Shown: positions 1,104-23,719 of the stretch, piece after piece
How positions within the stretch are numbered: position 1 is the stretch's first letter
Layout: each line of letters starts with the position of its first letter
Assembly (NCBI GenBank): GCA_013696975.1
Contig: JACCXO010000024.1
Coordinates: forward strand, 1 to 38,868
Origin: Nocardioidaceae bacterium
GTDB lineage: Bacteria > Actinomycetota > Actinomycetes > Propionibacteriales > Nocardioidaceae
DNA length: 38,868 bases
Direction: 5' to 3'
Translations under genes and position numbers: made by a program
The notes under the pieces: model-generated
What the model was told of the DNA's origin: nothing
What the model saw: the letters and a program-made list of their open reading frames with translations, nothing else
The model's database searches: none

Positions 1104-1394
1104 CTAGACGCGGTCCGGGCCTCCTCCGGGGGCAGAAACCTCGCGTTTATCGGCGTACATGGCGTTGAGCAGGTCGAGCGAATCCAAAACGGAGCGTGCC
1201 TCGGACTCGTCCATCCGCGATAAGGCGAAACCCATGTGCACCAGCACCCAGTCACCAATCTGTGGCAGACCAGCAGCATCACCGATGAGCATCGCGGCCG
1301 AGACGTGCTGGTGCTGCCCTTGCACGTCGACGAGCATTCTTTGCCGAAGGAGGTCAACGGGTTCGACAACGCTGCCGGGCATTCCTAGGCACAT
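1104..1394 (-). CDS. hypC: Hydrogenase maturation chaperone HypC/HupF
   Basis: This is a 96-residue protein starting MCLGMPG, the HypC signature in which the cysteine after the initiator Met is essential. HypC, with HypD, carries the Fe(CN)2CO unit and delivers it to the immature [NiFe]-hydrogenase large subunit in the cytoplasm. The conserved core GDWVLVHMGFALSRMDESEA follows, and the length is usual for the family. I chose the ATG at 1394 over an in-frame start at 1421 because Cys2 must be near the N-terminus and a GAGAGGG precedes it. It is divergent from the CooC-like pair (99 nt between starts), so the two may share a control region. No other hyp genes are in the window. Confidence 0.93.
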   Translation of the reverse strand: MCLGMPGSVVEPVDLLRQRMLVDVQGQHQHVSAAMLIGDAAGLPQIGDWVLVHMGFALSRMDESEARSVLDSLDLLNAMYADKREVSAPGGGPDRV

Positions 1395-1493: not shown

Positions 1494-2252
1494 ATGCGGG
1501 TCGCTTTCGTGGGCAAGGGCGGTGCTGGCAAGTCGTCTCTCGCGGGTACTTTCGCACGTGTGCTGGCGGGCACCGGTGAGCGAGTGCTAGCGCTGGACTC
1601 CGACCCGATGCCGGGCCTGGCCTTCTCTTTGGGGATCGACCGCGTCGACGAAGGTTTGCCGGATGAGACGGTTGAGGAGTACAACGACGACGGCCATCGC
1701 CGATTTCGGCTGAGGCAGGGCCTAACAGGAGTTGGCGCCGTCGAGCGATACGCCGTCCAGGGTCCTGACGGGGTGCACTTCCTTCAACTTGGGAAAGCCC
1801 ACGGTCAGCGGTGGGACAACACTCGCCAGCACTTCGGCTTCCAGCATGTCCTGGACGACCTCCCCGGGGACGGCTGGAGCATCGTCGGGGACCTGCCCGG
1901 GGGAACCAGGCAGCCGTTCATGACCTGGGGGCGGTACGCGGACACGTTCCTCGTTATCGTCGAACCCACCCCCGCCTCATTGCTGACCGGTCGTCGCCTA
2001 GCCCGCTTGGCCGCGACGGCCCAGGCGCCGCGCGTGGTCGTGGTCGCCAACAAGGTCCGGGAATCCGAGGAAGTCGAGCGGGTCGGCGAACGCACCGGGC
2101 TGCGAGTCCTCGGCGCCGTCCCGTTCGACCCCGAACTGGAAACGGCGGATCGGCTAGGCCGGGCCGTGCTCGACCACGACCCTCAAGGTCAGACCGCCAC
2201 GGCGGTACGATCGCTGATGGATGTTCTTCTGACTGGAATGGAGCCCTCATGA
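1494..2252 (+). CDS. CooC/MinD-like P-loop ATPase 1, no CxC motif
   Basis: A 252-residue deviant Walker A ATPase of the ParA/MinD/CooC class: FVGKGGAGKSS at residues 6-15 and LALDSDPMPGL near 33-42. CooC proteins use ATP-driven dimerisation to help load nickel into carbon monoxide dehydrogenase. Where the paralogues in this locus have GCxC followed by D(M/F)EA, this one has no cysteine (LGKAHGQRWDNT at about 99-110) and DLPGGTRQPF. It has therefore lost the usual dimer-interface metal site. It overlaps the next ATPase by ATGA, so the two are probably translated together. A heterodimer with that protein is an inference. Confidence is high for the family and low for the exact role. Confidence 0.85.
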   Translation: MRVAFVGKGGAGKSSLAGTFARVLAGTGERVLALDSDPMPGLAFSLGIDRVDEGLPDETVEEYNDDGHRRFRLRQGLTGVGAVERYAVQGPDGVHFLQLGKAHGQRWDNTRQHFGFQHVLDDLPGDGWSIVGDLPGGTRQPFMTWGRYADTFLVIVEPTPASLLTGRRLARLAATAQAPRVVVVANKVRESEEVERVGERTGLRVLGAVPFDPELETADRLGRAVLDHDPQGQTATAVRSLMDVLLTGMEPS

Positions 2253-2989
2253 AGATCGCTGTCGTTGGCAAGGGTGGATCGGGAAAAACGACCACGTCGG
2301 CCGTTCTGGCTCGTACTTTTGCACGGCAAGGACGGGCGACGTTGGCCCTGGACTGCGACACCAATCCCAACCTCGGCATCTCGCTGGGACTGGGTGAGGA
2401 GGTGACGGAGAGCCTGATCGCGCTGCGCGATGCGGTCGACACCGGCGAGCAGGAACATGCGTCGAGCGCGGACGACCTGGTACGGCGCTTCGGCGTCGAG
2501 GCGCCCGACGGGGTGCATCTGGCGGTCGTCTCCGCGATCCAAAACCCGGAGCCGGGTTGCCCTTGATGCGGTATCTCACCTGAGCAGTTGCTCGGGCAGC
2601 TGGCACGTCCCGGTACCATCGTCGTTGCTGACTTCGAGGCCGGTCTCGGCACCGTCATGCGGCTCGACGGCCGTCCGGTGGACGTCGTCGTCGTGGTCGT
2701 GGAGCCGACCGCGAAGTCACTTGAAGTTGGCCGCCGCGCCGCCGATCTCGTCCGCGAGAGCGGCCTGGGCCGACTGGTCATTTCAGCCAACCGGGTCCGT
2801 GACGAGGACGACGCGGCGCGGGTCGCCGCCGCCTTCCCTGGACTCGACCTGCTCCTTGTGCCGGACGACCCAGCGATCCTCGCGGCCGAGCGAAGCGGCG
2901 TGGCCCCGCTCGACGCTGCACCGGAGGCGCCTGGCGTGCGGGCACTCGTCAGCCTCGCCAAGGGGCTTTTGGGTCCGGCGGGCGCTTGA
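2249..2989 (+). CDS. CooC-like P-loop ATPase 2, candidate selenoprotein (in-frame UGA at codon 106)
   Basis: From the ATG at 2249 the frame encodes a CooC-like ATPase (VVGKGGSGKTTT at 5-16, ALDCDTNPNLG near 34-44). It is interrupted only by TGA at 2564-2566, then continues in the same frame for 140 codons to the stop at 2987-2989. Read through, the protein is 246 residues, the length of its paralogues. The TGA sits in EPGC-P-TGA-CG (Cys104, position 106, Cys107). The paralogues read AGCTCSGH and EGCLCSAH there, and CooC has GCVCPEH. The position of the second metal-binding Cys is thus encoded by UGA. Conserved sequence continues on both sides (VVADFEAGLG, VVVEPTAKSLEVGRR, ISANRVRDEDDA), and a SECIS-like hairpin follows. 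I infer selenocysteine insertion. The alternative is a nonsense mutation Cys to stop. No selA, selB, selD or tRNA-Sec gene is in the window. Confidence 0.8.
2579..2596 (+). promoter_or_regulatory. Candidate bacterial SECIS hairpin
   Basis: Beginning 12 nt after the in-frame TGA, CCTGAGC pairs with GCTCGGG (7 bp, one T-G wobble) around an AGTT loop. Bacterial SECIS elements lie inside the coding region directly after the UGA, have a short apical loop with a G in its first two positions, and sit about 11 nt after the UGA in the E. coli fdhF case. All three properties are met. A 7-bp hairpin in GC-rich DNA can arise by chance, so the strength of the call comes from its position relative to the UGA and the conserved Cys site. 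Confidence 0.65.
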
Positions 2990-3057: not shown

Positions 3058-3837
3058 CTAGTCTGCGACGGCGAAGTCGACCGCTGCGAGCACGGAGTCC
3101 AGGGCCGCCTGAACCTCCCTCGTCATGGGCGTCATGCCTACCAACCCAGCACGGTCGTCCGCCGCGACTCGCGCGTCGTACGGCAGAACGCCTGCCAACT
3201 CAATGCCCTCGGCCGCCAGTGCGTCTGTGAAGAACTGGACGTCCTCCGGAGTCCGCGCTTTGTTGCCCACCGCAAGTACATGCGGAATGCCCAGCTCGGC
3301 AGCGAGGGCGGATGTCCGTGCGGCCGTCAGGACCGACTTGCGGGTCGGCTCGCAGACGACGACCAGCACGTCAGCGTAGGCAAGCGTGCCGCCTGAGCGG
3401 CTGAGGTGCTCCAGCCCGGCCTCCATGTCGACGAGCGTCACGTCGACCTCGACGAGGGCATCTGCGAGCAGGTTGCGGACTGTTGCATGGCCGCTACAGG
3501 TGCACCCGGCGCCGGCCTCGGTAACCCGGATCGCCGAGAGTAGCGTCGGGCCAGCAGGAGTGGAGCGGCCGTAGTCGCTGACGAGAGCGTCAGCCGACGG
3601 CGCGGGGCCCGAGCCGACGAGGACGGCTCGCGGCAACACTGGCACCGCCTCAGTGTCGGCCAACGACAAGCCGAGTGACAGCCCAAGATTGGGGTTGGAG
3701 TCGGTGTCGATGGCCACGACCCGCTTGCCCCGCTCGCTGTAGGAGCGCGCGAGCAAGCCTGAGACGGTGGTCTTTCCCACGCCGCCCTTGCCGACGACGC
3801 CAAGCTTCAAGCCGACCGACAATGCAGCGGTGCTCAT
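3058..3837 (-). CDS. CooC-like P-loop ATPase 3 (GCTC motif)
   Basis: A 259-residue protein starting MSTAALSVG at the ATG at 3837, with GGAG 8 nt upstream. The Walker A is VVGKGGVGKTTVS (14-26), followed by AIDTDSNPNLGLSLGL (42-57). The CooC metal site is intact: AGAGCTCSGHATV with Cys112 and Cys114, then VDMEAGLEHLSR. This is the closest of the four to authentic CooC, the ATP-dependent nickel-insertion factor of CO dehydrogenase. No CO dehydrogenase gene is present here, so within this locus its target may be the hydrogenase or an Fe-S/Ni insertion step. It is convergent with ATPase 2 and divergent from the small membrane-protein operon at 3941, with a 103-nt gap that must hold both promoters. 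Confidence 0.88.
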   Translation of the reverse strand: MSTAALSVGLKLGVVGKGGVGKTTVSGLLARSYSERGKRVVAIDTDSNPNLGLSLGLSLADTEAVPVLPRAVLVGSGPAPSADALVSDYGRSTPAGPTLLSAIRVTEAGAGCTCSGHATVRNLLADALVEVDVTLVDMEAGLEHLSRSGGTLAYADVLVVVCEPTRKSVLTAARTSALAAELGIPHVLAVGNKARTPEDVQFFTDALAAEGIELAGVLPYDARVAADDRAGLVGMTPMTREVQAALDSVLAAVDFAVAD

Positions 3838-5808: not shown

Positions 5809-7065
5809 GTGTCCGCCGATGAGCAGGAGGGCGCCAGCGTTACCGATGAGGCCACAGCCGCGCTCGAGACCCGACTGGCCAAGCATCCGCCCGGTCGCTA
5901 CCCCGCCCAGCACGCAACGGCAGCCTTCCACCTTGGTACGACGCACCTGCAGCGGGGTCGGGTCGCAGAGGCTCTGCAGGTCCTCCGTGCCGCAGTCGAG
6001 ATCTTCGGGCAGCTGGGGATGCGCCTGGAAGAAGCGAAGGCGCTGACGATGCAGGGAGTCGCCTTCCGCGAAGCCGGGCGCATCGAACTGGCCCGGCAGG
6101 AATTCGAGCGTGCGGCCTCCGCCTTCCATGAGCTGGAACAACCAGTCGAGGAAGCGGCCGCGTCATACGATCTCGGACTTGTGCTTTGGGAACAGGGGGA
6201 TGCAGCCGAGGCACAGGATGCGATGCGGCGTGCCGGTGAGCTGTTCCTGCGGGCCGGTTACCTCGCGCAGGCCGGATCCGCGGCCCGTGAACAGGGCACA
6301 GCCCTGCTCACGTCGGGTGAGGCGGGGTCCGCACTGCCATTACTGCGTGAGGCGGCCAGCCTGGCGGAACGTGCCGGCGACCTGCCGGGCCTGGGCGCTG
6401 CCGCTAACGCCCTCGGTCTGGCACATCTGGCCTCCGACGACAGCGCAGCTGCGGTAGTGGCACTTTCCCGCGCTGTCGGCGCCTTTCCCCGCAGCATGCG
6501 TCCCGCCGAGCACGCGATGGCCAAGTCCAACCTTGCGGTCGCGCATGAGCAGGCCGGCAACCAGGCTCGAGCCCGGCTTACGGCTCGCCAGGCATTGGCA
6601 TTGCCGGGCGCCGACCCACAGGTACACGCGCAGGCGCAGCAGTTGCTGGACCGGTTGTCAGGCGCGACGCAGGGCGATCTGCATATAGTCCTAGATGCGG
6701 AGCCGCGGGAGCGCTGGCCGGCGATCGTGCGTGAGGAGGCCGTGCGTTGGTGCGAGGCGAGTGCAGCCGAGCGATCGCAGGCCGTCTGTGGCTTCGTGGA
6801 TGGACTGCTGAATCGGCCAGCGGCGTCGTACGATCTGGCCGAAAGTCTGCTCGCAGTGCTACTCGAGCTGCCACCAGAGCCCTACGGCGAGCTGGTGACA
6901 GCGATCGTGCAAGCCACCGGAGGGCGAGCCGAAGAAGACAGCGAGCGAGTCCGGACCGTCGTCGGGTCGGCCATGGCTCGGTTCGCGATCCCTCAATGGC
7001 AGCGGCTCGCGAGCAGCCTCAACAGCGCTGCCAACGCGGCGGGACAGCCGGAGGGCTGGCGATGA
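5809..7065 (+). CDS. TPR-repeat protein of the hydrogenase locus
   Basis: 418 residues from a GTG at 5809. Residues about 40-290 are tandem tetratricopeptide-type helix pairs, for example ARQEFERAASAFHEL, AASYDLGLVLWEQGDAAEAQDAM and ALPLLREAASLAERAGDLPG. There is no signal peptide or membrane helix. The C-terminal 120 residues are a separate helical domain rich in E and R. TPR proteins are protein-protein adaptors, and one accompanies several high-affinity hydrogenase operons, so an assembly-platform role is likely but inferred. It overlaps the next gene by ATGA and is divergent from the protease. Confidence 0.8.
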   Translation: MSADEQEGASVTDEATAALETRLAKHPPGRYPAQHATAAFHLGTTHLQRGRVAEALQVLRAAVEIFGQLGMRLEEAKALTMQGVAFREAGRIELARQEFERAASAFHELEQPVEEAAASYDLGLVLWEQGDAAEAQDAMRRAGELFLRAGYLAQAGSAAREQGTALLTSGEAGSALPLLREAASLAERAGDLPGLGAAANALGLAHLASDDSAAAVVALSRAVGAFPRSMRPAEHAMAKSNLAVAHEQAGNQARARLTARQALALPGADPQVHAQAQQLLDRLSGATQGDLHIVLDAEPRERWPAIVREEAVRWCEASAAERSQAVCGFVDGLLNRPAASYDLAESLLAVLLELPPEPYGELVTAIVQATGGRAEEDSERVRTVVGSAMARFAIPQWQRLASSLNSAANAAGQPEGWR

Positions 7066-7832
7066 ACGGAGACCTTGGGGTTACGGAGGTATCGGCGGCG
7101 CTCGGAGACCGTCCAGTACGTGCGTACCTGGCGTTGCTGTCGACCGAAGCCGAGGCGATGGCGTGGGCTCGCACCGGAGCAGCCACCGGGGCGTTGGTGG
7201 TTGCGGACTACCAGGCTTCGCCGCGGGGACGCGGTGGTCTGCCGTGGACCGTACAGCCCGGTCGGGGACTCGGCTTCTCGCTGTTGGCGCGACCCGCCCT
7301 TCCCCCAGAACGCGAGGGATGGCCCTACGTTGCGGCGTCGCTCGCAGTCGCCGAGGTGATCGGTGACCACGCCGCGCTCGACTGGCCCGACACCGTGGTT
7401 GCGCCGGAGGGCGAGCCCGCGCTCGCGCGGCTGGGTTGCTACGTCGAGCTCGGCCCGGACCGAACCGACTGGGCGACCATCACCGTCCTCGTCGTGGACG
7501 CAGCGCCGCCGCGCGCCGCGCTGCTCCGTCAGCTCGTGGACGCGCTGGAGAACCGGCTCGACGCTGCGGCCGACACGGTGCTGTCGGTTTACCGTTCCCG
7601 CTGCATCACGCTCGGCCGTCAGGTGCGAGCTCGGATGATCCCGATGGGGTCCGGAGGTCACGAGATCAACGGCGAGGCCGTCGACGTGCTCGCCGACGGC
7701 GCACTGGTCGTGCTCACCGCCCAAGGAAACCGGGTGGCCGTTCCCCCACAGAACCTCGGGTTGCTCGAGGCGCCAACGGCACCGCCCGAACTACCCCGAG
7801 ACATCCGGAGGCGGCTCGAAGACCTGCATTAG
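7062..7832 (+). CDS. Biotin/lipoate-ligase-fold protein, active site altered
   Basis: A 256-residue protein. Residues 47-76 (VADYQASPRGRGGLPW ... GRGLGFSLLARP) match the biotin protein ligase core, where a GRGR-x-G-R-x-W loop binds biotinyl-AMP. The KWPND motif, whose Lys is catalytic in BirA, is DWPDTVV here (about 107-113), so the Lys is absent. The C-terminal part (GEAVDVLADGALVVLTAQGNRVAV) resembles the small SH3-like domain of BirA. There is no HTH. It may be a ligase for another substrate or a non-catalytic binder working with the TPR partner that overlaps it by 4 nt. The family call is good; a biotin ligase function is doubtful. Confidence 0.75.
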   Translation: MNGDLGVTEVSAALGDRPVRAYLALLSTEAEAMAWARTGAATGALVVADYQASPRGRGGLPWTVQPGRGLGFSLLARPALPPEREGWPYVAASLAVAEVIGDHAALDWPDTVVAPEGEPALARLGCYVELGPDRTDWATITVLVVDAAPPRAALLRQLVDALENRLDAAADTVLSVYRSRCITLGRQVRARMIPMGSGGHEINGEAVDVLADGALVVLTAQGNRVAVPPQNLGLLEAPTAPPELPRDIRRRLEDLH

Positions 7833-7842
7833 CGTGACGCCG

Positions 7843-8595
7843 TCAGCCTGGGACCGCCTCTACCGCCTGCAACCGGTCCAGCTCCTCGATCAAGCCCCAC
7901 CACAGCGCCCAGTCCCGATGATCCATCCCCTCGCTGCTCACGTCGCTGGCGATACGACTGCGCAGCCGATCACGGAAGGTGAAGGTTCGACCCCACCGCC
8001 CCTCCCGGTCCAGGTGCGACAGCTCGCCGAGTAGCTGGCACATGGCGGCCCGCGAAGTCGACGGCTGTAAGCGATCCCCCCCGACGAGCGGGCCGAGGTC
8101 GTTGACCAGACGCAACAACGGCGCCCGACGCAGCTCTGTGCGGACGAGGTCCAGGGCCACCCCGAGGCCAGCCTGCGCTGACTCAGTCAGCCCCTCGCCT
8201 GAGCTCGTCTTTTCCGGCTCTACCTCCACTGCGATCGTCCGACGCGGAAGCGCACCGAGGCCTGTCGCCACATCGACGATGAGGTCCAGATGGACATAAC
8301 CGGTGACGGCGTCCCCTACGGCAGCTTGCAGTTGCGGTGCGGTCAGCTGCGGTGGGTCGATACGTCGGCGCTCCACAGTGCCGGGGCGGCGGTCTCGTCG
8401 TACGGCACTGATGAGCACCAGCGTGTCGGGCCGGACATCCTGCAGCCGCTGGACCACGGCCACGGCGCCGTAGTGCAGCTCTTCTACGAGGACGTCTCTG
8501 CCGAGATCTTCAGGCTGCAGGCGCTCGATGGCGAGCCGACCGAGATCGAGGTCACTTTGAAAAAGCTCGCTGACGCCGCCCACCAAGACCGTCAT
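7843..8595 (-). CDS. Hydrogenase-maturation-protease-like protein with altered metal site
   Basis: 250 residues from the ATG at 8595, 16 nt after the large-subunit stop, so it is the third gene of the structural operon. The first about 160 residues follow the HyaD/HybD fold: MTVLVGG, then DTLVLISAVRRDRRPGTV and VHLDLIVDVATGLGALPRRTIAVEVEP. Relative to the canonical protease at 5292-5789, GN is GG, the DD-G-V-G segment becomes SDLDLG, and the Asp of VDAVD is Ser (ISAVR), while the His may remain. The 90-residue C-terminal extension is Trp- and Arg-rich and unique. It may be a pseudo-protease used as a chaperone or a structural partner of the large subunit. This is inference. Confidence 0.75.
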   Translation of the reverse strand: MTVLVGGVSELFQSDLDLGRLAIERLQPEDLGRDVLVEELHYGAVAVVQRLQDVRPDTLVLISAVRRDRRPGTVERRRIDPPQLTAPQLQAAVGDAVTGYVHLDLIVDVATGLGALPRRTIAVEVEPEKTSSGEGLTESAQAGLGVALDLVRTELRRAPLLRLVNDLGPLVGGDRLQPSTSRAAMCQLLGELSHLDREGRWGRTFTFRDRLRSRIASDVSSEGMDHRDWALWWGLIEELDRLQAVEAVPG

Positions 8596-8611
8596 TTGAC
8601 GCCTCGGCGGG

Positions 8612-10513
8612 TCAGTCGCCGCCACATGAGCAGGTGTTGACCTCGCGGGTGACCTCGCCGTCGCCGGTGTGCGCGTGCGTCGTGCATGGCATGCAGGGGT
8701 CGAAGCTGCGGATGGCCCGCAGCATGTCGATGCTGGTGAACTTCGCCGGGTCGGACAGATCTTCAATAATGGGGGTGTTCATCACGGCCTCCTCGTACGG
8801 GCCCGGCTGGCCCCACGGATCGCGGGGAGAGGCGTTGATCGTCGAGGGGGTGACGATCTGATAGTTCGTGATCTTGCCCTTGTCCATGACGAGGTGGTGC
8901 GTGAGCCAGCCGCGACCGGCTCCCCACCAGCCGACGCTGCGACGCTCATCTTGCGGGATCGCCTTCTCGATTTCCGTGGGTGTGAGAGTCGCGACCCGTC
9001 GCTCACCTTGTTGGAACAGCTTGTAGGCCTCGAACAGGCTCTCCAGGCCGACTAGCTGGCTGAACAGGTAGTGGTAGGCGCGACCCCGGTTGCGTTCGAA
9101 GGCGTTCCAACGCTCGGGCACGCGCCACTCGACCTCACGTTCGCCGATCTCCCCTTTGGGAATCAGGAAACGCATGCCGGACCCGTCGGCGGAGATGAAT
9201 TCGCTGGTCGGCATCTTCTGAGCTTTCGCCGTCATCAGCAGCCGTGAATAACAGCCAGCCTCGACGACCTGCCGGTCCCACCTCGGTGCGGTCGCCCAGG
9301 TGTATTTTTCCTTCCAGTCACGACTGCCGGGCTTTGGCAGGGTTCGCTTGTTCCAAGGGTGGTACGGCGAGATGGGGTTGCCGAGAGGATCGTTCGGATA
9401 GCGGCTCGTCTTCGACTCCTCGTAGTAGGAGTGCTCGATGAACTCCTCGAGGCCGATGTTCAAATCGGTGAGGCGAGTCGTGACAAGCTCCCCGTCCAAG
9501 ACAACTCCGGGCGTCGACCAGCGCTTCTCTCCCCAGGCGTTGCAGTTCTCATAGGTGGCGTCATAGGCGTAGGGGTCGTCCCAGTAGCCGGGGTCGATGT
9601 GGCTCGACGGCCGGTAGCCGACGAACTGGTAGCGCTCGTCGGCTTCGTAGAAGAAGGCGGGGATGTCGTCCCACACGGCCATCATCCGTTGGGCGTAGTC
9701 GAAGATTTGCCCCAGGCGGGAGTGGTACTCGTTGAGCGTCTGCAGGGTGAGTGTCGTAGAAACACCGCCGGGCACGACGTTTTGGGGGTGCGGGTACTTC
9801 CCCGTCAAGATCACCACCATCTCCCGCGACAGGCGGGTGAAATCCAATCCCTCACGGTAGAGGGCTCCCGTCAGCGGGTTGAGTGCCGTCATCAGGTCAG
9901 CCATGGTCTTGAAGCCATGAATGTGCTCACTCGGGCACTTCCACTGCTCGGCCTTCGGCCAAAGCTCGGGGTTGGAGGACTTGATGACCGATTCGGAGTA
10001 GTCCGGCCCCGCGAGCAGGTAGAGGTGCAAGGGGTTGTCGTAGCCCATCTCTGCGGCCTCGGTCATGTTCCGTACGACGGTGCCTAGCGGCGGTGGCTTG
10101 ATACCCATGGCTTGCTCGATGGCGTACGCCGCGCAGTGCGCGTGGACGCCTCCGCAGACGCCGCAAGCCCGCGACGAGACGAAGATGGCGTCGCGCGGGT
10201 CCCGACCCATGAGGATGACCTCGTAGCCGCGAAACAGCGTCGCCTGGGAGTGCGAGTCGAGGTAGGCCCCCTTTTCGAGGTCGGCGGTCACATGGACCGC
10301 GAGCGCGCCCGCAATGCGGGTCACCGGGTCCATGTTGAGGTCCTTGATGTGGCCGTTGCGGGCCACCAGCCGCTCGATTCGAGCGGTGCGTTCATCCTCG
10401 GTCATCCCGATGTCGGGCATCGCGACGGTGACGTCGTACGGGTTGGGGATGCCCCCGCGAAGGTTGGCGTTGCCTTGGGCGTCGAACTCGACCGGAAGGG
10501 TCTTGAAGCACAT
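8612..10513 (-). CDS. [NiFe]-hydrogenase large (catalytic) subunit
   Basis: 633 residues. The N-terminal Ni-Fe ligand motif is RACGVCGGVH (Cys117, Cys120) and the C-terminal motif DPCMPCTTH (Cys607, Cys610, His613), so all four cysteine ligands are Cys, not Sec. A 20-residue tail ending CSCGGD would be cleaved after His613 by the maturation protease. The layout (RGYEVILMGRDPRDA; HGFKTMADLMTALNPLTG) is most like group 1h and allied actinobacterial uptake hydrogenases, not the group 2a Huc type. Subgroup placement needs a tree. GAGGAG lies 8 nt before the ATG. It catalyses H2 oxidation with the adjacent small subunit, probably feeding electrons to the respiratory chain. Confidence 0.95.
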   Translation of the reverse strand: MCFKTLPVEFDAQGNANLRGGIPNPYDVTVAMPDIGMTEDERTARIERLVARNGHIKDLNMDPVTRIAGALAVHVTADLEKGAYLDSHSQATLFRGYEVILMGRDPRDAIFVSSRACGVCGGVHAHCAAYAIEQAMGIKPPPLGTVVRNMTEAAEMGYDNPLHLYLLAGPDYSESVIKSSNPELWPKAEQWKCPSEHIHGFKTMADLMTALNPLTGALYREGLDFTRLSREMVVILTGKYPHPQNVVPGGVSTTLTLQTLNEYHSRLGQIFDYAQRMMAVWDDIPAFFYEADERYQFVGYRPSSHIDPGYWDDPYAYDATYENCNAWGEKRWSTPGVVLDGELVTTRLTDLNIGLEEFIEHSYYEESKTSRYPNDPLGNPISPYHPWNKRTLPKPGSRDWKEKYTWATAPRWDRQVVEAGCYSRLLMTAKAQKMPTSEFISADGSGMRFLIPKGEIGEREVEWRVPERWNAFERNRGRAYHYLFSQLVGLESLFEAYKLFQQGERRVATLTPTEIEKAIPQDERRSVGWWGAGRGWLTHHLVMDKGKITNYQIVTPSTINASPRDPWGQPGPYEEAVMNTPIIEDLSDPAKFTSIDMLRAIRSFDPCMPCTTHAHTGDGEVTREVNTCSCGGD

Positions 10514-10535: not shown

Positions 10536-11900
10536 TCAGACGTTGGCACGGTCGCCGCGTGGGCTACCGCCGCTGGGACTCTCATCCGGCCGCTTACCCC
10601 AGACATCGGCGTCATGGCGGGCGGTGTCTCCGTGGCGACGGAGACGGTCGTAGAACTTGTGACCGACGTTGGACAGCCCGGACGGCTCGCTCCTTTCGCG
10701 TGAGTAGGCGCTGGGCGTCGCGCCCTGCTTGTCCCATCGCACCTCACGGTTGAGGTTGTTGTTGCTGAACTTGCGCAGCGGCCGGATCACGCTGCCGACC
10801 ATCCGCGAGACCGTCGTCGATGCCAGCGAGCCCGGTGGGCGGGAGTAGAACGGCGTGAACTTGTCAGGGAAGCCGGGCATGGTGCAGCCGATGCAGGCGC
10901 CGCCTGCGTTCATGCAGCCGCCGAGGCCCGCGATCGCGCCACGCGACGTGATGTTGCAGTTGACGACCGGCCCCCAGCAGCCGATCTCGACGAGGCACTC
11001 CGGGTCGCCGAACTCTTCGGCGAACGTTCCCTCCTCGTAGTAGGCCCCACGTACGCACCGACGGTGCACTGTCTCCCCGAACAACCACGCGGGACGGCCG
11101 AGCTCGTCGAACTCCGGCAGTGGACCGAAACCCTGCAGGAAGTACAGGACCGCCGCAACGGTCTCGGTGAAGTTGTCGCCGATCGGCGGGCAGCCGGGGA
11201 CGTTGACGACCGGCACACCGAGCACCGAGCGGTAATCCTTGCCGAGGAAGTCCATCAGGCTCATCGCACCTGTGGGGTTGCCCTCCGCCGAGGGAATGCC
11301 GCCCCACGTCGCGCACGTCCCAATGGCGATCATCGCTGCCGCGTTCGGGGCGAGCCTGGCTATCCACTCCGTCGAGCTGACCGGGCGTAGCTCACCGTCA
11401 GGACCCCACGGCTCCTCACCCGTCGACGACCAATAGCCACCCTGAAGGTGGGCGATCGTCTCGTCGGCGATCGAACCCTCGAGGATCACGACGTATGGCG
11501 CGTCCAACTTGCCGGCGACTGCCTGCTCGGCCGGCTGAAGATAGTACGGCCCGGACTCCATATTGATGACAGGGTGATGCAGAACCACCCGCGGCACCCC
11601 CGGGTGCGCCCCGAGCATCAGACTCTCCACCGAAGGAAGCGTCGCGCCGGTCACCGCCACGCTGCAGCCGTCGCAGCTCATCCCAGCGAACCAGAATGCG
11701 TGCACCTTCTCGAGCGGGCCGAAGCGCGTCGCACCGGTGGCGGTAGCTACCGGCGACAGCATGTCCTCGGTCATCGCGCCCGACGGCATCCCGAAGGCGC
11801 CCAGATGCGAGGTGTCGTGATATGTGTCGACCGGACCCAGCAGGCTGAGCAGCTGCTGCGCCGGGGTTTGTCGCTGCGACGTGCTCTGTCGATCGGCCAT
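10536..11900 (-). CDS. [NiFe]-hydrogenase small (Fe-S) subunit
   Basis: 454 residues from the ATG at 11900 (AGGAG upstream). The three-cluster ligand set is complete: MSCDGCSV (Cys76, Cys79), GTCATWGG and PGCPPIGDN for the proximal cluster; ETVHRRC, PEC and IGCWGP for the distal; and VVNC, GGCMNAGGACIGC for the medial and nearby cysteines. Group 1h proteins carry Asp in the first motif (LSCDGDSV), whereas this has Cys, so it is related to but distinct from 1h. There is no twin-arginine signal at the N-terminus, so the enzyme should face the cytoplasm. The C-terminal tail after IGC is long, basic and low in hydrophobic residues. It is 22 nt upstream of the large subunit. Confidence 0.94.
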   Translation of the reverse strand: MADRQSTSQRQTPAQQLLSLLGPVDTYHDTSHLGAFGMPSGAMTEDMLSPVATATGATRFGPLEKVHAFWFAGMSCDGCSVAVTGATLPSVESLMLGAHPGVPRVVLHHPVINMESGPYYLQPAEQAVAGKLDAPYVVILEGSIADETIAHLQGGYWSSTGEEPWGPDGELRPVSSTEWIARLAPNAAAMIAIGTCATWGGIPSAEGNPTGAMSLMDFLGKDYRSVLGVPVVNVPGCPPIGDNFTETVAAVLYFLQGFGPLPEFDELGRPAWLFGETVHRRCVRGAYYEEGTFAEEFGDPECLVEIGCWGPVVNCNITSRGAIAGLGGCMNAGGACIGCTMPGFPDKFTPFYSRPPGSLASTTVSRMVGSVIRPLRKFSNNNLNREVRWDKQGATPSAYSRERSEPSGLSNVGHKFYDRLRRHGDTARHDADVWGKRPDESPSGGSPRGDRANV

Positions 11901-11931
11901 CTGAACTCCTGTGGCATAATCCAAACACTTC

Positions 11932-11948
11932 TGTATGTGCACCATACA
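11932..11948. promoter_or_regulatory. Inverted repeat in the hydrogenase divergent control region
   Basis: TGTATG-TGCAC-CATACA is a perfect 6-bp inverted repeat with a 5-nt centre in the 113-nt gap between the small subunit (minus) and the operon at 12014 (plus). On the reverse strand it reads TGTATGGTGCACA, and a related direct copy TGTACGGTGCGGA occurs at 11967-11979. It fits an operator for a dimeric regulator such as the PadR encoded at 13234. This is inferred from position only. Confidence 0.45.
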
Positions 11949-12013
11949 CATAGCATCGAATCCAGGTGTACGGTGCGGACTGGAGCTCAGCACACACACA
12001 TCTTGGAGGGCCA

Positions 12014-12845: not shown

Positions 12846-13237
12846 CCATGGACGAGCTGCACCCGCCCAAGTCGGAGGCGCTGCGCACCCTGTACTGGCG
12901 CAGCGAGATTCTGCAGGTCATGTACTGGCTGAAGGGCGAGGGACTCGGCGACGTCGTCGACGCCCCGCTGCTCGAGCGCTTCCTGGGCGTGGAGGCTCAG
13001 CTCGGGGTTGGCTATCTCGACCGGCTGGTGCTCGACGGCTACCTTGAGCTGTCCGACGGCGGCTACGTGCTTTCTGAGGTCGGGCTGGCAGAGGGCAAGA
13101 CGGAGTTCGCGCTCAGTTTCGCTGACCTGACCCGCCCCGCCCACGGCGAGTGCAGCGCTGACTGCTGGTGCCACAACTCCGTTGCCGAGGCCCTCGCCTG
13201 CGCCGCTGAACGTGCTCATCCGGGGGCTCGCGGATGA
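12842..13237 (+). CDS. Winged-helix-like protein with C-terminal Cys/His motif
   Basis: 131 residues. The N-terminal and central part (LRTLYWRSEILQVMYWLKGEGLGDVV ... LERFLGVEAQLGVGYLDRLVLDGYLEL) looks like a winged helix-turn-helix. The C-terminus contains HGECSADCWCHNS, a CxxxCxCH cluster suited to binding a metal or Fe-S cluster. It sits between the membrane proteins and the padR gene with 4-nt overlaps on both sides. It may be a metal- or redox-sensing regulator or a hydrogenase cluster-assembly factor. I do not recognise a named family. Confidence 0.72.
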   Translation: MTMDELHPPKSEALRTLYWRSEILQVMYWLKGEGLGDVVDAPLLERFLGVEAQLGVGYLDRLVLDGYLELSDGGYVLSEVGLAEGKTEFALSFADLTRPAHGECSADCWCHNSVAEALACAAERAHPGARG

Positions 13238-13608
13238 GCACCAACCCCGTCGAGGAGTTCTCGGTCGGGATGCCACGCAACTACCTCCGGCCGTGTCTGC
13301 TGCTCCTACTGGCTGAGGGGACGTCTCACGGTTACGAGCTGCTCGACCAAGTCACCGCGCTGGGTTTGGACCGGGCGGACCCGGGGAGCCTCTACCGCTG
13401 CCTGCGAGCGATGGACGAGGAAGCCCTGGTCCACTCGTTCTGGGAGCCGTCCACCTCTGGTCCGGCCCGCCGTACCTATGCGTTGACCGACGAAGGACGA
13501 GAGTGGCTGCACGCTATCGCCGGGTCACTGGCGGAGGTTTCCCGCGCACTCGATGCTTACCACCGGCGCTATCAGAAGCTTGTCGAGCAGGATGAGCACG
13601 CCCGGTGA
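13234..13608 (+). CDS. PadR-family transcriptional regulator
   Basis: 124 residues. The winged-helix core LLLLAEGTSHGYELLDQV, DPGSLYRCLRAMDEEALV and RRTYALTDEGREWL is the PadR signature. A C-terminal helix (SRALDAYHRRYQKLVEQ) should make the dimer. PadR proteins usually repress a neighbouring operon until a small molecule binds, and here the likely target is the control region at 11901-12013. It has 4-nt overlaps with both flanking genes, so it would be autoregulated as part of the hydrogenase accessory operon. Confidence 0.88.
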   Translation: MSTNPVEEFSVGMPRNYLRPCLLLLLAEGTSHGYELLDQVTALGLDRADPGSLYRCLRAMDEEALVHSFWEPSTSGPARRTYALTDEGREWLHAIAGSLAEVSRALDAYHRRYQKLVEQDEHAR

Positions 13609-14429
13609 GGCTAGCCGTCGCGGGGAAGGGCGGTGCGGGCAAGACGACGATCAGCGCCACGTTCGCCCGGCTGGCCGCTCGTGCGGGGAACCCCGTCGTC
13701 GCGATTGACGCCGACGCCAACCCGAACCTGTCCACCGCGCTGGGTGTCCCGCCTGCAGTCGCCACGCGCCTCGGACCCGTGCCGCCGTCGCTGATCTCAC
13801 GTCGTCTCGGGGGTACGGGACTCACTGAACCTATCGACGCGGTGTTGGACCGTTATGCGCTCAGCGCGCCCGACGGTATCCGGCTGCTCGGGATGGGAGC
13901 ACCCGCCCACGCTGACGAGGGCTGTCTTTGTTCCGCACACGCGGTCGTGGCCTCGCTACTCGAGGATCTGGGCGGGGAGGACGACCGGCTGGTCATCGTT
14001 GACATGGAGGCCTCCCCCGAGCACTTCAGCCGTGGAACGGTCCGGCACGTCGACACCGTCTGTCTCGTCGCCGAGCCCTACTACCGCTCGCTCGAAACCG
14101 TCTGGCGCATGGGCGCGCTCGTCGCGGAGCTACCTGTCGGCCGAGTCGTCGTGGTCGCCAACAAGGTGCGCTCGGCGGAAGACCAGGAGGCCATCACGGA
14201 ATTCTGTGACCGTCATGCCTTCGAGCTCGCGGGGAGCGTCCCGTGGAGTGAGGAGGTGGTCGCCGCCGACCGGCAACGCGTCCCCCTGGTTGACTGGCCC
14301 GGCGCCACGCCCGTCGTCGCAGCTGTCGCGGAGCTGGTCGCCGTGCTCGCCGCCGCAGGCCCACTCCGGCAGGCCCACGCAGCCTCTAACAAGGCGAGCA
14401 CTGGCCCCACTTGCCAATCGCCGCGCTGA
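13605..14429 (+). CDS. CooC-like P-loop ATPase 4 (GCLC motif)
   Basis: 274 residues from a GTG at 13605 overlapping the padR stop. The Walker A is AVAGKGGAGKTTIS (4-17), then AIDADANPNLSTALG (33-47). The metal site is ADEGCLCSAHAVV with Cys107 and Cys109, followed by VDMEASPEHFSRG. It is a canonical CooC-type dimer-interface CxC protein, so probably a metallochaperone ATPase. The last 20 residues are an Ala/Ser/Thr-rich tail absent in the other three. It is the last gene of the plus-strand accessory operon beginning at 12014. Nickel or Fe-S delivery to hydrogenase is inferred. Confidence 0.88.
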   Translation: MRLAVAGKGGAGKTTISATFARLAARAGNPVVAIDADANPNLSTALGVPPAVATRLGPVPPSLISRRLGGTGLTEPIDAVLDRYALSAPDGIRLLGMGAPAHADEGCLCSAHAVVASLLEDLGGEDDRLVIVDMEASPEHFSRGTVRHVDTVCLVAEPYYRSLETVWRMGALVAELPVGRVVVVANKVRSAEDQEAITEFCDRHAFELAGSVPWSEEVVAADRQRVPLVDWPGATPVVAAVAELVAVLAAAGPLRQAHAASNKASTGPTCQSPR

Positions 14430-20484: not shown

Positions 20485-21378
20485 TCAACCCTTGACGCCT
20501 GATCCGAGGTCGGAGGAGGTGAAGTGCTTCTGGAAGGCGACGAACAGAACGACCGCTGGGATGGCCAGGACGACGGCTCCAGCGAGGATCGCGCCATAAG
20601 GGTTCGCGGCCCGTCCCGCGATGTTGCTGATGTAGTTGGCCAGTGACACCGCCAGTGGTTGCATGTCAGCCTCTTTGGTGACGAGGAACGGCCAGAGGAA
20701 CTCGTTCCATGGCCCGATGAAGGTGAGCAACAAGGCGGTGACCAGCGCCGGTCGCACTAGCGGCAGAGCGATTGACCACAGGATGCGGAACTCTCCTGCG
20801 CCATCAATGCGAGCAGCGGAGAAGAGATCCTCGGGCAGCTGCATGAAGAACTGGCGGAAGATGAACACGGCCGTGGAGTTGATCGCAAACGGCAGAATCA
20901 TTCCCGCGTACGTGTCCGCGAGGCCGTAAGTACGCACAACCATCACGTAGATCGGGATGACCAGTAGCTGGAACGGCACGATCTGGACGAGCAACATAAC
21001 GGCGAACAAAGTGCCCTGCCCGCGGAAGTGCAGCCGGGCCAGGGCATAGCCAGCCAGCACCCCGAAGACAACGGTGAACAGGAGAACCCCTCCGGTGAAG
21101 ATGCCGGAGTTGGCCAGCGCCTGGACGAGGTTCAGTCGGTCATTGATCTGACTGTAGTTGTCCAGGGTCAAACCACCTGTGGGCACTGCACCAGCGAGTG
21201 ACGTGTCCGGCTCCTTCTGCAGAGAGCCGATCAGCATGTAATAGAAGGGGAACACGAAGATCAGCGCCCCGAGCGCGAGCACGAGGTAGCGCGGCCAGAG
21301 GCGTCCCTTCGACCGGTCGACCATCTGCTCCGGTGGGGTCGACTCTTCGGTCGTCTCGAGCTGCTGAGCGGTGGCCAT
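20485..21378 (-). CDS. ABC sugar transporter permease, MalG type
   Basis: 297 residues with six hydrophobic segments and the EAA-loop region FSAARIDGAGEFRILWSIALPLVRPAL, where the ATPase docks. The N-terminus is cytoplasmic and the first helix is about 29-50 (RYLVLALGALIFVFPFYYML). It pairs with the MalF-type permease whose gene ends 2 nt upstream. The ATP-binding subunit is not encoded in this operon and is probably a shared MsmK-type protein. The C-terminal KHFTSSDLGSGVKG ending is typical for sugar permeases. Confidence 0.92.
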   Translation of the reverse strand: MATAQQLETTEESTPPEQMVDRSKGRLWPRYLVLALGALIFVFPFYYMLIGSLQKEPDTSLAGAVPTGGLTLDNYSQINDRLNLVQALANSGIFTGGVLLFTVVFGVLAGYALARLHFRGQGTLFAVMLLVQIVPFQLLVIPIYVMVVRTYGLADTYAGMILPFAINSTAVFIFRQFFMQLPEDLFSAARIDGAGEFRILWSIALPLVRPALVTALLLTFIGPWNEFLWPFLVTKEADMQPLAVSLANYISNIAGRAANPYGAILAGAVVLAIPAVVLFVAFQKHFTSSDLGSGVKG

Positions 21379-21379
21379 G

Positions 21380-22312
21380 TCAGTCCCGTTCCAAGAGTTT
21401 CCGGTTGACCAGCGAGATCAGCAGTACTCCGATCACAAGGATGACTCCGATAGCCGATGCGGTGTCCGGGTTCCCCTGCTCGATGCCCTTTTGATACATC
21501 ACCAGGACGGGAGAACTGGAGGCTCCGTCGGGGCCACCTCCGTTAGTGAGCAGGTACGGCTCGGTGAAGAGATTCGCTCCGGTTATGGTCGCCAGAATGA
21601 CCACCAGCACGGTCGCCGGACGTACCCCCGGAACCGTGATGTTCGTGAAAGACCGGAAGCGACGCGCGCCATCGACAGCCGCCGCTTCGTACAGCTCCTT
21701 CGGCACATTTTGCAGAGCGGCCAGATAAAGCAAGATGAAGAATCCGAGCTGTTTCCAGGTGACGAAGATGGCGATCACCGGCATGGCGAGCGCGCTGTTG
21801 ACCAACCACGAGGGATCCGGGGCGAGCGGCCCGAGCAGCTGGTTGACCATGCCGCCGCTGCTGAACAGGAACAGCCACACCGCCACCAGTGCGACGCTGG
21901 CTGTGACGTACGGGATGTAGTAGGCGACCCGGAGCGCGGCCCGTCCACGGATTGCGCCGTTGAGGGCGCTTGCCAAGACGAGAGAGAGGACGACGGTGAG
22001 GGGAACGTTGATGAGAAGGAATTGGATCACGTTGAGAAACGACCGCCGTACGGCGGGATCCCCCAGCACCGTCTTGTAGTTCTCCAGACCGACGAACGGG
22101 CGATCGACCTGCGCCCCGGGGGCGGCGAAGAAATAGTCCTGGAAGCTGATCCACACCGCCAGCCCGAGCGGGTAGGCGAACACAGCAGCGAGGAACACCG
22201 CATAAGGCGCTGCGAACACAAGACCCAGCGGCTGACGCCCCAAGATGGCCGTCCGCCGCGAGCGTGAGCTAGAAGGTTTATCGGTGCTGGCCGTCTCGGC
22301 CTCCGCCTTCAT
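21380..22312 (-). CDS. ABC sugar transporter permease, MalF type
   Basis: 310 residues with six membrane segments, starting APYAVFLAAVFAYPLGLAVW after a basic, Ser-rich N-terminus. The EAA loop is LYEAAAVDGARRFRSFTNITVPGVRPA. It is the larger permease partner of the MalG-type protein; together they form the channel for the sugar taken up by the binding protein encoded 15 nt upstream. The context of GH130 and an isomerase suggests short mannosides as cargo, but no residue in the permease shows this. Confidence 0.92.
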   Translation of the reverse strand: MKAEAETASTDKPSSSRSRRTAILGRQPLGLVFAAPYAVFLAAVFAYPLGLAVWISFQDYFFAAPGAQVDRPFVGLENYKTVLGDPAVRRSFLNVIQFLLINVPLTVVLSLVLASALNGAIRGRAALRVAYYIPYVTASVALVAVWLFLFSSGGMVNQLLGPLAPDPSWLVNSALAMPVIAIFVTWKQLGFFILLYLAALQNVPKELYEAAAVDGARRFRSFTNITVPGVRPATVLVVILATITGANLFTEPYLLTNGGGPDGASSSPVLVMYQKGIEQGNPDTASAIGVILVIGVLLISLVNRKLLERD

Positions 22313-22326
22313 CTGGATTCAACTCG

Positions 22327-23610
22327 TCAGGACTGGCCGGCGAGCTCGGTGGCTTCAGCTGCTGCCGCTGCCAGGGCTTCGCTGACGGAGCCTTTACCGA
22401 AGATGACGGACGCGGAGTACTCGTCGCGGAACGCTTGCCAGATGGCGATGGAGTTGGGGACGTTGGGAACCTCGACGGTTCGAGAGCCCTGGTCGGCGAA
22501 CGTCTCGTACTCCGGGTTCTTGTCGAAGTAGTCGGCGTACGTCGACTGCAGATCCGCTCGCAGCGGCATCTGGCCGGTCATTTCCAGGAGCTCGCCGTCC
22601 TGCTCCTCGCTGGTAGCGAACTTCAGCACCTCGAACGCCGTGCCCTGGTTCTCACACGCGGAGAAAAGGCCGATGTTCTTGGCGTCAGAGAAGGTGTAGA
22701 TCTCCTCAGGACTCATGCCGCTCGACGTGGGGACGGGCGCGACACCCCAGTTGACGGCATCCCCGTACACAGCGACCGCCCAGGGGCCGACCACCGACAT
22801 GGCTGCCTTCTTGTCCGCGAACGAGTCGCCGTTGTACGCCTCCTTCTGTGAGAGTCCTTCGGCGTACAACGTCGCCCAGAAGTTCGCGACGCTCTCTCCG
22901 GCCTCGGAGTCGAAGGTCGCCTTTCCGTCCTCGACCAGTTGCTGTCCACCGCTCTCTGCCGCGAAGAGGGGGTAGAAGTCGAACCAGGACTGGAAGAACT
23001 CGCTCGTTGGGGCTGGCCAGATTGCAGCTTCGGCCGCGCCACTGTCGACGACCTTCTGGCTGGTGGCCAGGAACTCGTCGTAGGTAGCCAACGGCGGATT
23101 CTCCGGATCGACACCAGCCTCCTTCATGATGTCCTTGTTGTAGAAGATCATCACCGGATTCGATTTCCACGGGATCTGGTAGTACTGCCCGTCCGGCGAT
23201 TGGTACTGCTGCGCCGAGTCGCCACTGCGGGACTCGACATAGTCAGCCCCGCCCTCGAAACTGTCCAGGGCGACCAGGCCACCCTGCTTCTGGAACTGCG
23301 GGACGGCGGCCGGAGAGGTGTTGAACACCAGGCAGGGAGCGTTGCCGGCGGTGATGGCCGCACCGATGACCTCCTCAGAGGTTTGGCCAGCGGGGATCTC
23401 CTGCGCGGTGACCTCCTCGTTGGGGTTCTCGGCGTTCCAGGCCTTCACCATGGCCTCGCCCCAGGCGATCTCCTCCGGGTTGTTCGAGAGCCAGATCTTT
23501 ATCGGCCCTGTCGTGGTTTGCGCGTCAGGGGAACCGCCTGAGTCACCGCCGCAGGCCGCAGTCACCCCGAGAGTCAGCATCAACGTCACTGCTAGGACAT
23601 TCTTCTTCAT
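22327..23610 (-). CDS. ABC transporter sugar-binding lipoprotein
   Basis: 427 residues from the ATG at 23610, GGAG upstream; GTG codons just before it are less likely starts. The signal peptide ends in the lipobox GVTAACGGD, so the mature protein is tethered by a lipidated cysteine. The body is a family 1 solute-binding fold (IKIWLSNNPEEIAWGEAMVKAWNAENP; VMIFYNKDIMKEAGVDPENP). It is the first gene of the six-gene minus-strand operon, read from the promoter at 23720-23748 and probably repressed by the divergent LacI protein. Confidence 0.93.
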   Translation of the reverse strand: MKKNVLAVTLMLTLGVTAACGGDSGGSPDAQTTTGPIKIWLSNNPEEIAWGEAMVKAWNAENPNEEVTAQEIPAGQTSEEVIGAAITAGNAPCLVFNTSPAAVPQFQKQGGLVALDSFEGGADYVESRSGDSAQQYQSPDGQYYQIPWKSNPVMIFYNKDIMKEAGVDPENPPLATYDEFLATSQKVVDSGAAEAAIWPAPTSEFFQSWFDFYPLFAAESGGQQLVEDGKATFDSEAGESVANFWATLYAEGLSQKEAYNGDSFADKKAAMSVVGPWAVAVYGDAVNWGVAPVPTSSGMSPEEIYTFSDAKNIGLFSACENQGTAFEVLKFATSEEQDGELLEMTGQMPLRADLQSTYADYFDKNPEYETFADQGSRTVEVPNVPNSIAIWQAFRDEYSASVIFGKGSVSEALAAAAAEATELAGQS

Positions 23611-23719
23611 CACCACTCCGATCGGGGGGCGACCTCGAATAAGGACGTCCTCGGTTCTGTTGATCGTTCTTCACCTTTGAGCTATCCCGCCGACATCTGT
23701 GCATGTCAGCCGTAGAGTG

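Follow-up and report, generated by a model that had tools for sequence, protein, structure and literature searches.

What does a single in-frame TGA codon mean when it falls at a predicted metal-site cysteine of an ATPase gene? The question is raised by a forward-strand gene at 2249–2989 of the 38,868-nt stretch of DNA analysed here (the window), which is contig C31 of a 1.88-Mb MAG that is 82.5% complete. The frame opens with ATG at 2249 and terminates at TGA 2987–2989, and its sole interruption is the TGA of codon 106 (2564–2566); read through, it encodes a 246-residue SIMIBI ATPase of the CooC type with the peptide NPEPGCP-U-CGISPEQLLG around that codon (motif GCPUCG). The intact frame around one TGA that was originally claimed is thus borne out, as are the motifs given for two CooC-like paralogues in the window (GCTC in the gene at 3058, GCLC in that at 13605). 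The lengths of these paralogues, which had been put at the same 246 residues, are 259 and 274 residues and hence only similar.

Codon 106 in homologues and selection around it

The in-frame TGA is aligned with a cysteine conserved in homologues, and other homologues carry TGA as well. A first homologue scan of genome contigs yielded 46 loci; within the close family, codon 106 was TGA in seven (the window, L014, L018, L019, L024, L025 and L028), TAG in four, all from Geodermatophilaceae (L016 from Geodermatophilus, L022 from Modestobacter, L023 and L045 from Blastococcus), and a cysteine codon in six (L015, L017, L020, L021, L043 and L044). TGA stood at both codon 104 and codon 106 in 16 loci (L026, L027 and L029–L042; motif GUPUCG, GUPUC or DUPUC), almost all of which carry the label Acidimicrobiia or that of one of its subgroups. 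TGA in the codon-106 column recurs across independent assemblies, and the homologues with UGA at this position, which the original prediction had led us to look for, are joined by others with UAG. C107, the third cysteine directly after Sec, is invariant in a 23-sequence alignment. The double-Sec form U-P-U-C was also seen in L091, L096, L100 and L101, and the two Sec codons (104 and 106) are apparently served by a single downstream hairpin. One divergent member, L114 (G177:C115:11207-11920), has a TGA within a shortened motif, PGUGG, and is possibly a decaying copy.

Purifying selection acts alike on both sides of the codon, with no relaxation 3′ of the TGA: Nei–Gojobori pn/ps was 0.16 before and 0.17 after codon 106 between the window and L014, and 0.16 before and 0.13 after it between L016 and L045. 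Conservation in many assemblies, together with constraint on both sides, led us to reject a pseudogene or an assembly error.

A bSECIS hairpin and matching tRNA-Sec anticodons

A bSECIS hairpin at 2579–2596 (forward strand), composed of a 7-bp stem (CCTGAGC/GCTCGGG) and an AGTT loop, begins 12 nt 3′ of the TGA codon and presents its loop 19 nt after it. Its folding energy is −14.6 kcal/mol over 45 nt, and it agrees with all four published bSECIS criteria (as given in PMC13188914). Base pairing is kept in 99.4% of pair cells across 24 Sec forms, and two hairpin pairs change on both sides (G-C/C-G and C-G/U-A), amounting to 16 both-side changed cells against 4.8 in shuffles (matched in 0 of 500). 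The Leu codon within the hairpin is TTG in every aligned Sec form, as compared to 8% TTG elsewhere in these genes, and synonymous recoding of the same peptide yields the hairpin in 0.4–9% of draws per sequence. One Sec form, L024, misses the outermost pair. Five of the six Cys forms (L017, L020, L021, L043 and L044) have a broken hairpin, but in L015, with TGC at codon 106, it is still intact (L015:2635-2680); this locus looks like a recent Sec-to-Cys reversion, and neither a clear tRNA-Sec nor SelB was found in its genome. Scanning the window against Rfam, with gathering scores as the cut-off, returned no match; this was expected, since bSECIS elements vary and can fall outside any Rfam family.

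Does the host genome have the means to insert selenocysteine? On contig C13 of the window's genome, selD, tRNA-Sec (76.6 bits, anticodon UCA), selA and selB lie adjacent in one cassette (selB and the tRNA named by family match, selD and selA from their own sequences), so that the full machinery anticipated by the original prediction is in place. When tRNA-Sec was sought in the genomes that gave the homologue loci, its anticodon matched the codon: CUA in each of the four genomes with TAG, and UCA in each of the 19 with TGA where it was detected. Counting tRNA-Sec, SelA or SelB, machinery was present in 34 of 36 Sec-form genomes versus one of seven Cys-form genomes (Fisher p = 3e-5, which is only indicative, since the genomes are related and phylogeny is uncorrected). 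No counted match to any of the three came from the Sec-form genomes G015 (occurring again as G430) and G237, both fragmented assemblies (G015/G430 is 78% complete; the SelB search left out G237). Weak tRNA-Sec matches of 44–48 bits (L156–L167), among which those of G177 and G418 lie just above the family cut-off, were not counted. In G031, the ATPase (L044) is of the Cys form (GCMCCG) despite the presence of tRNA-Sec and SelB in the genome. The use of UAG for Sec in Geodermatophilaceae is already known, with FDH, UGSC and AhpC as the selenoproteins named in PMC5330540 (citing Mukai et al. 2016); the TAG forms described here share this code via tRNA-Sec(CUA), and that source names no CooC-like ATPase.

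Could the codon be something other than selenocysteine? A lone in-frame TGA in one MAG could also be a genuine stop, mark a pseudogene or stem from an error in sequencing, but TGA or TAG in the same column of many independent assemblies, constraint 3′ of the codon, a bSECIS with compensatory changes and the matching tRNA-Sec anticodons make this reading hardly credible. Just as little can be said for a suppressor tRNA (opal or amber) that puts another residue, e.g., Cys, at the stop codon: Cys is indeed what homologues have here instead, but the codon comes together with SelB-type machinery and bSECIS hairpins, and the genomes that use UAG have tRNA-Sec(CUA). Selenocysteine, by comparison, is almost certainly what UGA-106 encodes, judging from sequence, and selenium is predicted in the mature protein, its insertion as Sec being near-certain.

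Relation to CooC1 and other ATPases

The best solved match of the family profile is CooC1 (PDB 3kje and relatives; E 1.3e-24 over 214 positions), with MinD next (1.2e-13) and NifH far lower (3.2e-8). In this profile C104 and U106 align with the two cysteines of the CooC1 CxC, C112 and C114, in agreement with the earlier placement of codon 106 at the second Cys of the CooC CxC; Cys112 and Cys114 of two CooC1 monomers bind Zn/Ni (PMC6006190). An AlphaFold2 monomer with Cys substituted for Sec (pLDDT 89.3, pTM 0.89) was searched with Foldseek, where FleN/MinD, CooC1 and NifH scored alike. As the fold search does not separate CooC1 from MinD/NifH, it is sequence and motif that carry the assignment to CooC. 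The protein has a deviant Walker A and a MinD/Mrp fold as well as a weak Pfam match to Fer4_NifH, and NCBIfam 20.0 holds no specific model for the selenoprotein family. The CooC-like identity suggested at the outset is thus supported by the sequence profile and, less specifically, by the fold, and we predict a CooC-like metal-site ATPase with high confidence. No CODH gene was seen in the annotated parts, and the cluster is that of a [NiFe]-hydrogenase; the protein is therefore filed as CooC-like, not as CooC.

With CooC1 of Carboxydothermus hydrogenoformans (3kje, 3kjg, 3kjh and 3kji), the nickel ATPase of CO dehydrogenase, the selenoprotein has in common the deviant Walker A GKGGxGKTT and a CxC at the same place as C104-P-U106. 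It differs in its Sec at the second predicted ligand position (at both positions in most Acidimicrobiia), in the third Cys that comes directly after it, and in the location of its gene, which resides in a [NiFe]-hydrogenase cluster, whereas CooC1 belongs to CODH maturation. The MinD/FlhG/NifH family has the same fold, although MinD and FlhG are, to our knowledge, without such a metal site. HypB is another SIMIBI-class NTPase, and the selenoprotein would act at the same step as HypB (with HypA), namely nucleotide-driven nickel insertion after HypCDEF; it is, however, not a HypB homologue by family scan, in which TIGR00073 gave no match. A further point of comparison is NF041053, which we take to be a CobW GTPase, of a family different from the CooC-like ATPase. 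This CobW-related protein is likewise a metal-handling P-loop NTPase and a predicted selenoprotein (PMC13188914), but its UxxC differs from the Sec motif found here.

The hydrogenase cluster and the distribution of HypA and HypB

In which genomic context does the selenoprotein occur? Its start is overlapped (ATGA) by the stop of a CooC-like paralogue without CxC (1494–2252, forward strand), a gene absent from the original prediction, and hypC (1104–1394, reverse strand; MCLGMPG N-terminus read by eye, homologue in L150 identified by family-library scan) is divergent from this ATPase pair. Further along the window lie the 259-residue paralogue with GCTC, a Cys form (3058–3837, reverse), a NifU-domain protein (PF01106; 4673–5275, forward), a TPR protein conserved in the cluster (5809–7065, forward), a weak biotin-protein-ligase-like ORF conserved in G118 (6747–7832, forward), a hydrogenase maturation protease (7843–8766, reverse; true start probably nearer 8600), the [NiFe]-hydrogenase large subunit HydL (8612–10513, reverse; DPCMPC ending, without Sec) and the small subunit HydS (10536–11999, reverse). 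A PadR-like regulator (13234–13608, forward; homologue L151:6417-6797 scanned) is conserved beside the 274-residue GCLC paralogue (13605–14429, forward), whose subfamily has a first-Cys Sec in other genomes. Sugar ABC transporter-like genes (binding proteins and permeases, read by eye) flank the cluster at 1–1000 and 20485–23616, both on the reverse strand.

All Sec loci of the 46-locus scan have the CxC-less gene, conserved as the upstream partner of the selenoprotein gene, and genes of the 3058 type, NifU and TPR genes are present in many of them. The G118 cluster runs hypF, the ATPase pair (on the opposite strand), hypC, hypD, hypE, a gmhA-like gene, hydS and hydL. Tight hydrogenase linkage is not universal: in G326, about 40 kb separate the ATPase pair from the closest hydrogenase. 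The nearest solved relative of HydL is Ralstonia HofG (5aa5), which places HydL toward the 1h side of group 1 (1h or 1l). A [NiFeSe] hydrogenase is ruled out, as the window's large subunit ends DPCMPCTTH with Cys. Divergent large-subunit homologues (39–42% identity) with one in-frame TAG were seen at G273:C110:3906-5576 and G177:C48:132028-133674, and others with an in-frame TGA on G418:C102, G151:C19, G031:C120 and G016:C102; some of these codons may be no more than the genes' own terminal stops caught within the alignment.

In standard maturation, HypB serves as the nickel NTPase (PMC12134894). Among the 20 genomes that hold this hydrogenase, the 16 without HypB are also the 16 without HypA; they include G113 (3 contigs, 99% complete), G148 and G326 as well as the isolates G003, G010 and G032; no HypB was found in the window's genome (G000, the 82.5% complete MAG). 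Both proteins are present in four of the 20 (G009, G011, G016 and G418), each of which holds a second, divergent hydrogenase (39–40% identity), and in G009, G016 and G418 this second hydrogenase shares one contig with hypA/hypB. The pairing is not strict, since G273 has an extra, 42%-identical hydrogenase, yet neither HypA nor HypB. Synteny and this HypA/HypB distribution both support the originally proposed connection with [NiFe]-hydrogenase maturation.

A second Sec subfamily

A phylum-wide scan of 397 genomes found the family in 23. In a second subfamily, TGA occupies the first Cys of the CxC (GULC or GUMC) and is accompanied by its own bSECIS-like hairpin at the matching place; its members are L102–L112, L115, L116, L118 and, from Thermoleophilaceae, L047. 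The two Sec groups fall into separate supported clades of the tree (98/93 and 98/90), and the second Sec clade also contains a Cys-only GCLC clade that includes the window's 13605 gene. The simplest reading is that selenium entered the motif twice independently; a double-Sec ancestor with later losses is a possible alternative. A GULC gene sits directly before hydS in G113 (3 contigs), and first-Cys Sec genes adjoin hydrogenase genes in G113 and G118.

A candidate route for nickel insertion

Taken as a whole, the best explanation is probably a Sec-containing CooC-type nickel-insertion chaperone that replaces HypA/HypB. In such a scheme, SelB and Sec-tRNA(UCA), guided by the bSECIS hairpin, would read UGA-106 as selenocysteine, giving a deviant-Walker CooC-type ATPase whose homology predicts a Cys-Pro-Sec-Cys metal site at the dimer interface. 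The selenoprotein would most likely work with its translationally coupled, CxC-less partner (1494–2252), bind Ni(II) via Cys104/Sec106 at that interface and, upon ATP binding or hydrolysis, hand it to the Fe(CN)2CO-loaded large subunit. Sec may be the softer Ni(II) ligand, and the site may be re-reduced more easily in aerobic soil bacteria. That CooC-like ATPases insert nickel in place of HypAB appears likely; with four CooC-like paralogues in the window, the nickel role may belong to another one.

Two other functions have to be weighed against this one. Some features would suit a NifH/BchL-like selenoprotein whose Cys/Sec hold an inter-protomer Fe–S cluster and which uses ATP to pass electrons to the hydrogenase or to the proximal cluster of that enzyme: NifH and BchL are among the fold matches, Pfam gives a weak match to Fer4_NifH, and a NifU-domain gene lies within the gene cluster. 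We consider such a function unlikely: CooC1 ranks far above any NifH in the profile (1.3e-24 versus 3.2e-8), the conserved Cys/Sec form a single C-x-U-C whereas the cluster cysteines of NifH sit in two separate loops, and the missing HypA/HypB would be left unexplained. Similarly doubtful is a role of Sec as a redox switch or reductase (a selenenylsulfide within C-P-U-C) instead of a metal ligand. Motifs in which Sec neighbours Cys are characteristic of redox selenoproteins (PMC13188914) and the invariance of C107 would fit, but, depending on lineage, Sec takes the place of one CooC metal ligand, of the other or of both, which points to a metal site, as does the comparison with CooC1.

Returning to the nickel-insertion chaperone, we lean slightly towards its broader form: in hydrogen-oxidising actinobacteria, several CooC-like ATPases would have taken over from HypA/HypB, selenium would have been introduced into the nickel site on two or more occasions (at the second Cys, or at both in one clade, and at the first Cys in another), and nickel insertion into a selenium-free [NiFe]-hydrogenase would depend on Sec.

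Implications

Has such a selenoprotein been described before? A May 2026 inventory of 119 prokaryotic selenoprotein (sub)families (PMC13188914) contains no ATPase of the CooC, MinD or ParA type, and no CooC-type selenoprotein was found in the literature searched, including PMC13188914, PMC12013277, PMC9312934 and PMC2398784, which agrees with the original claim of novelty; a prior annotation is possible in subscription literature and GenBank product names, which lay outside the search.

The family adds selenoproteins in which Sec belongs to the predicted metal site of a chaperone ATPase, rather than to an enzyme's own catalytic centre, and offers double-Sec forms. Beside FDH, UGSC and AhpC, it provides a further line of evidence for UAG as a Sec codon in Geodermatophilaceae. 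A gene finder to which UGA and UAG are nothing but stops will break each of these genes into two pieces. For the biology of these bacteria, the finding makes two matters testable, namely how nickel is supplied to the [NiFe]-hydrogenases of soil actinobacteria without HypA/HypB, and whether their oxidation of hydrogen depends on the supply of selenium.
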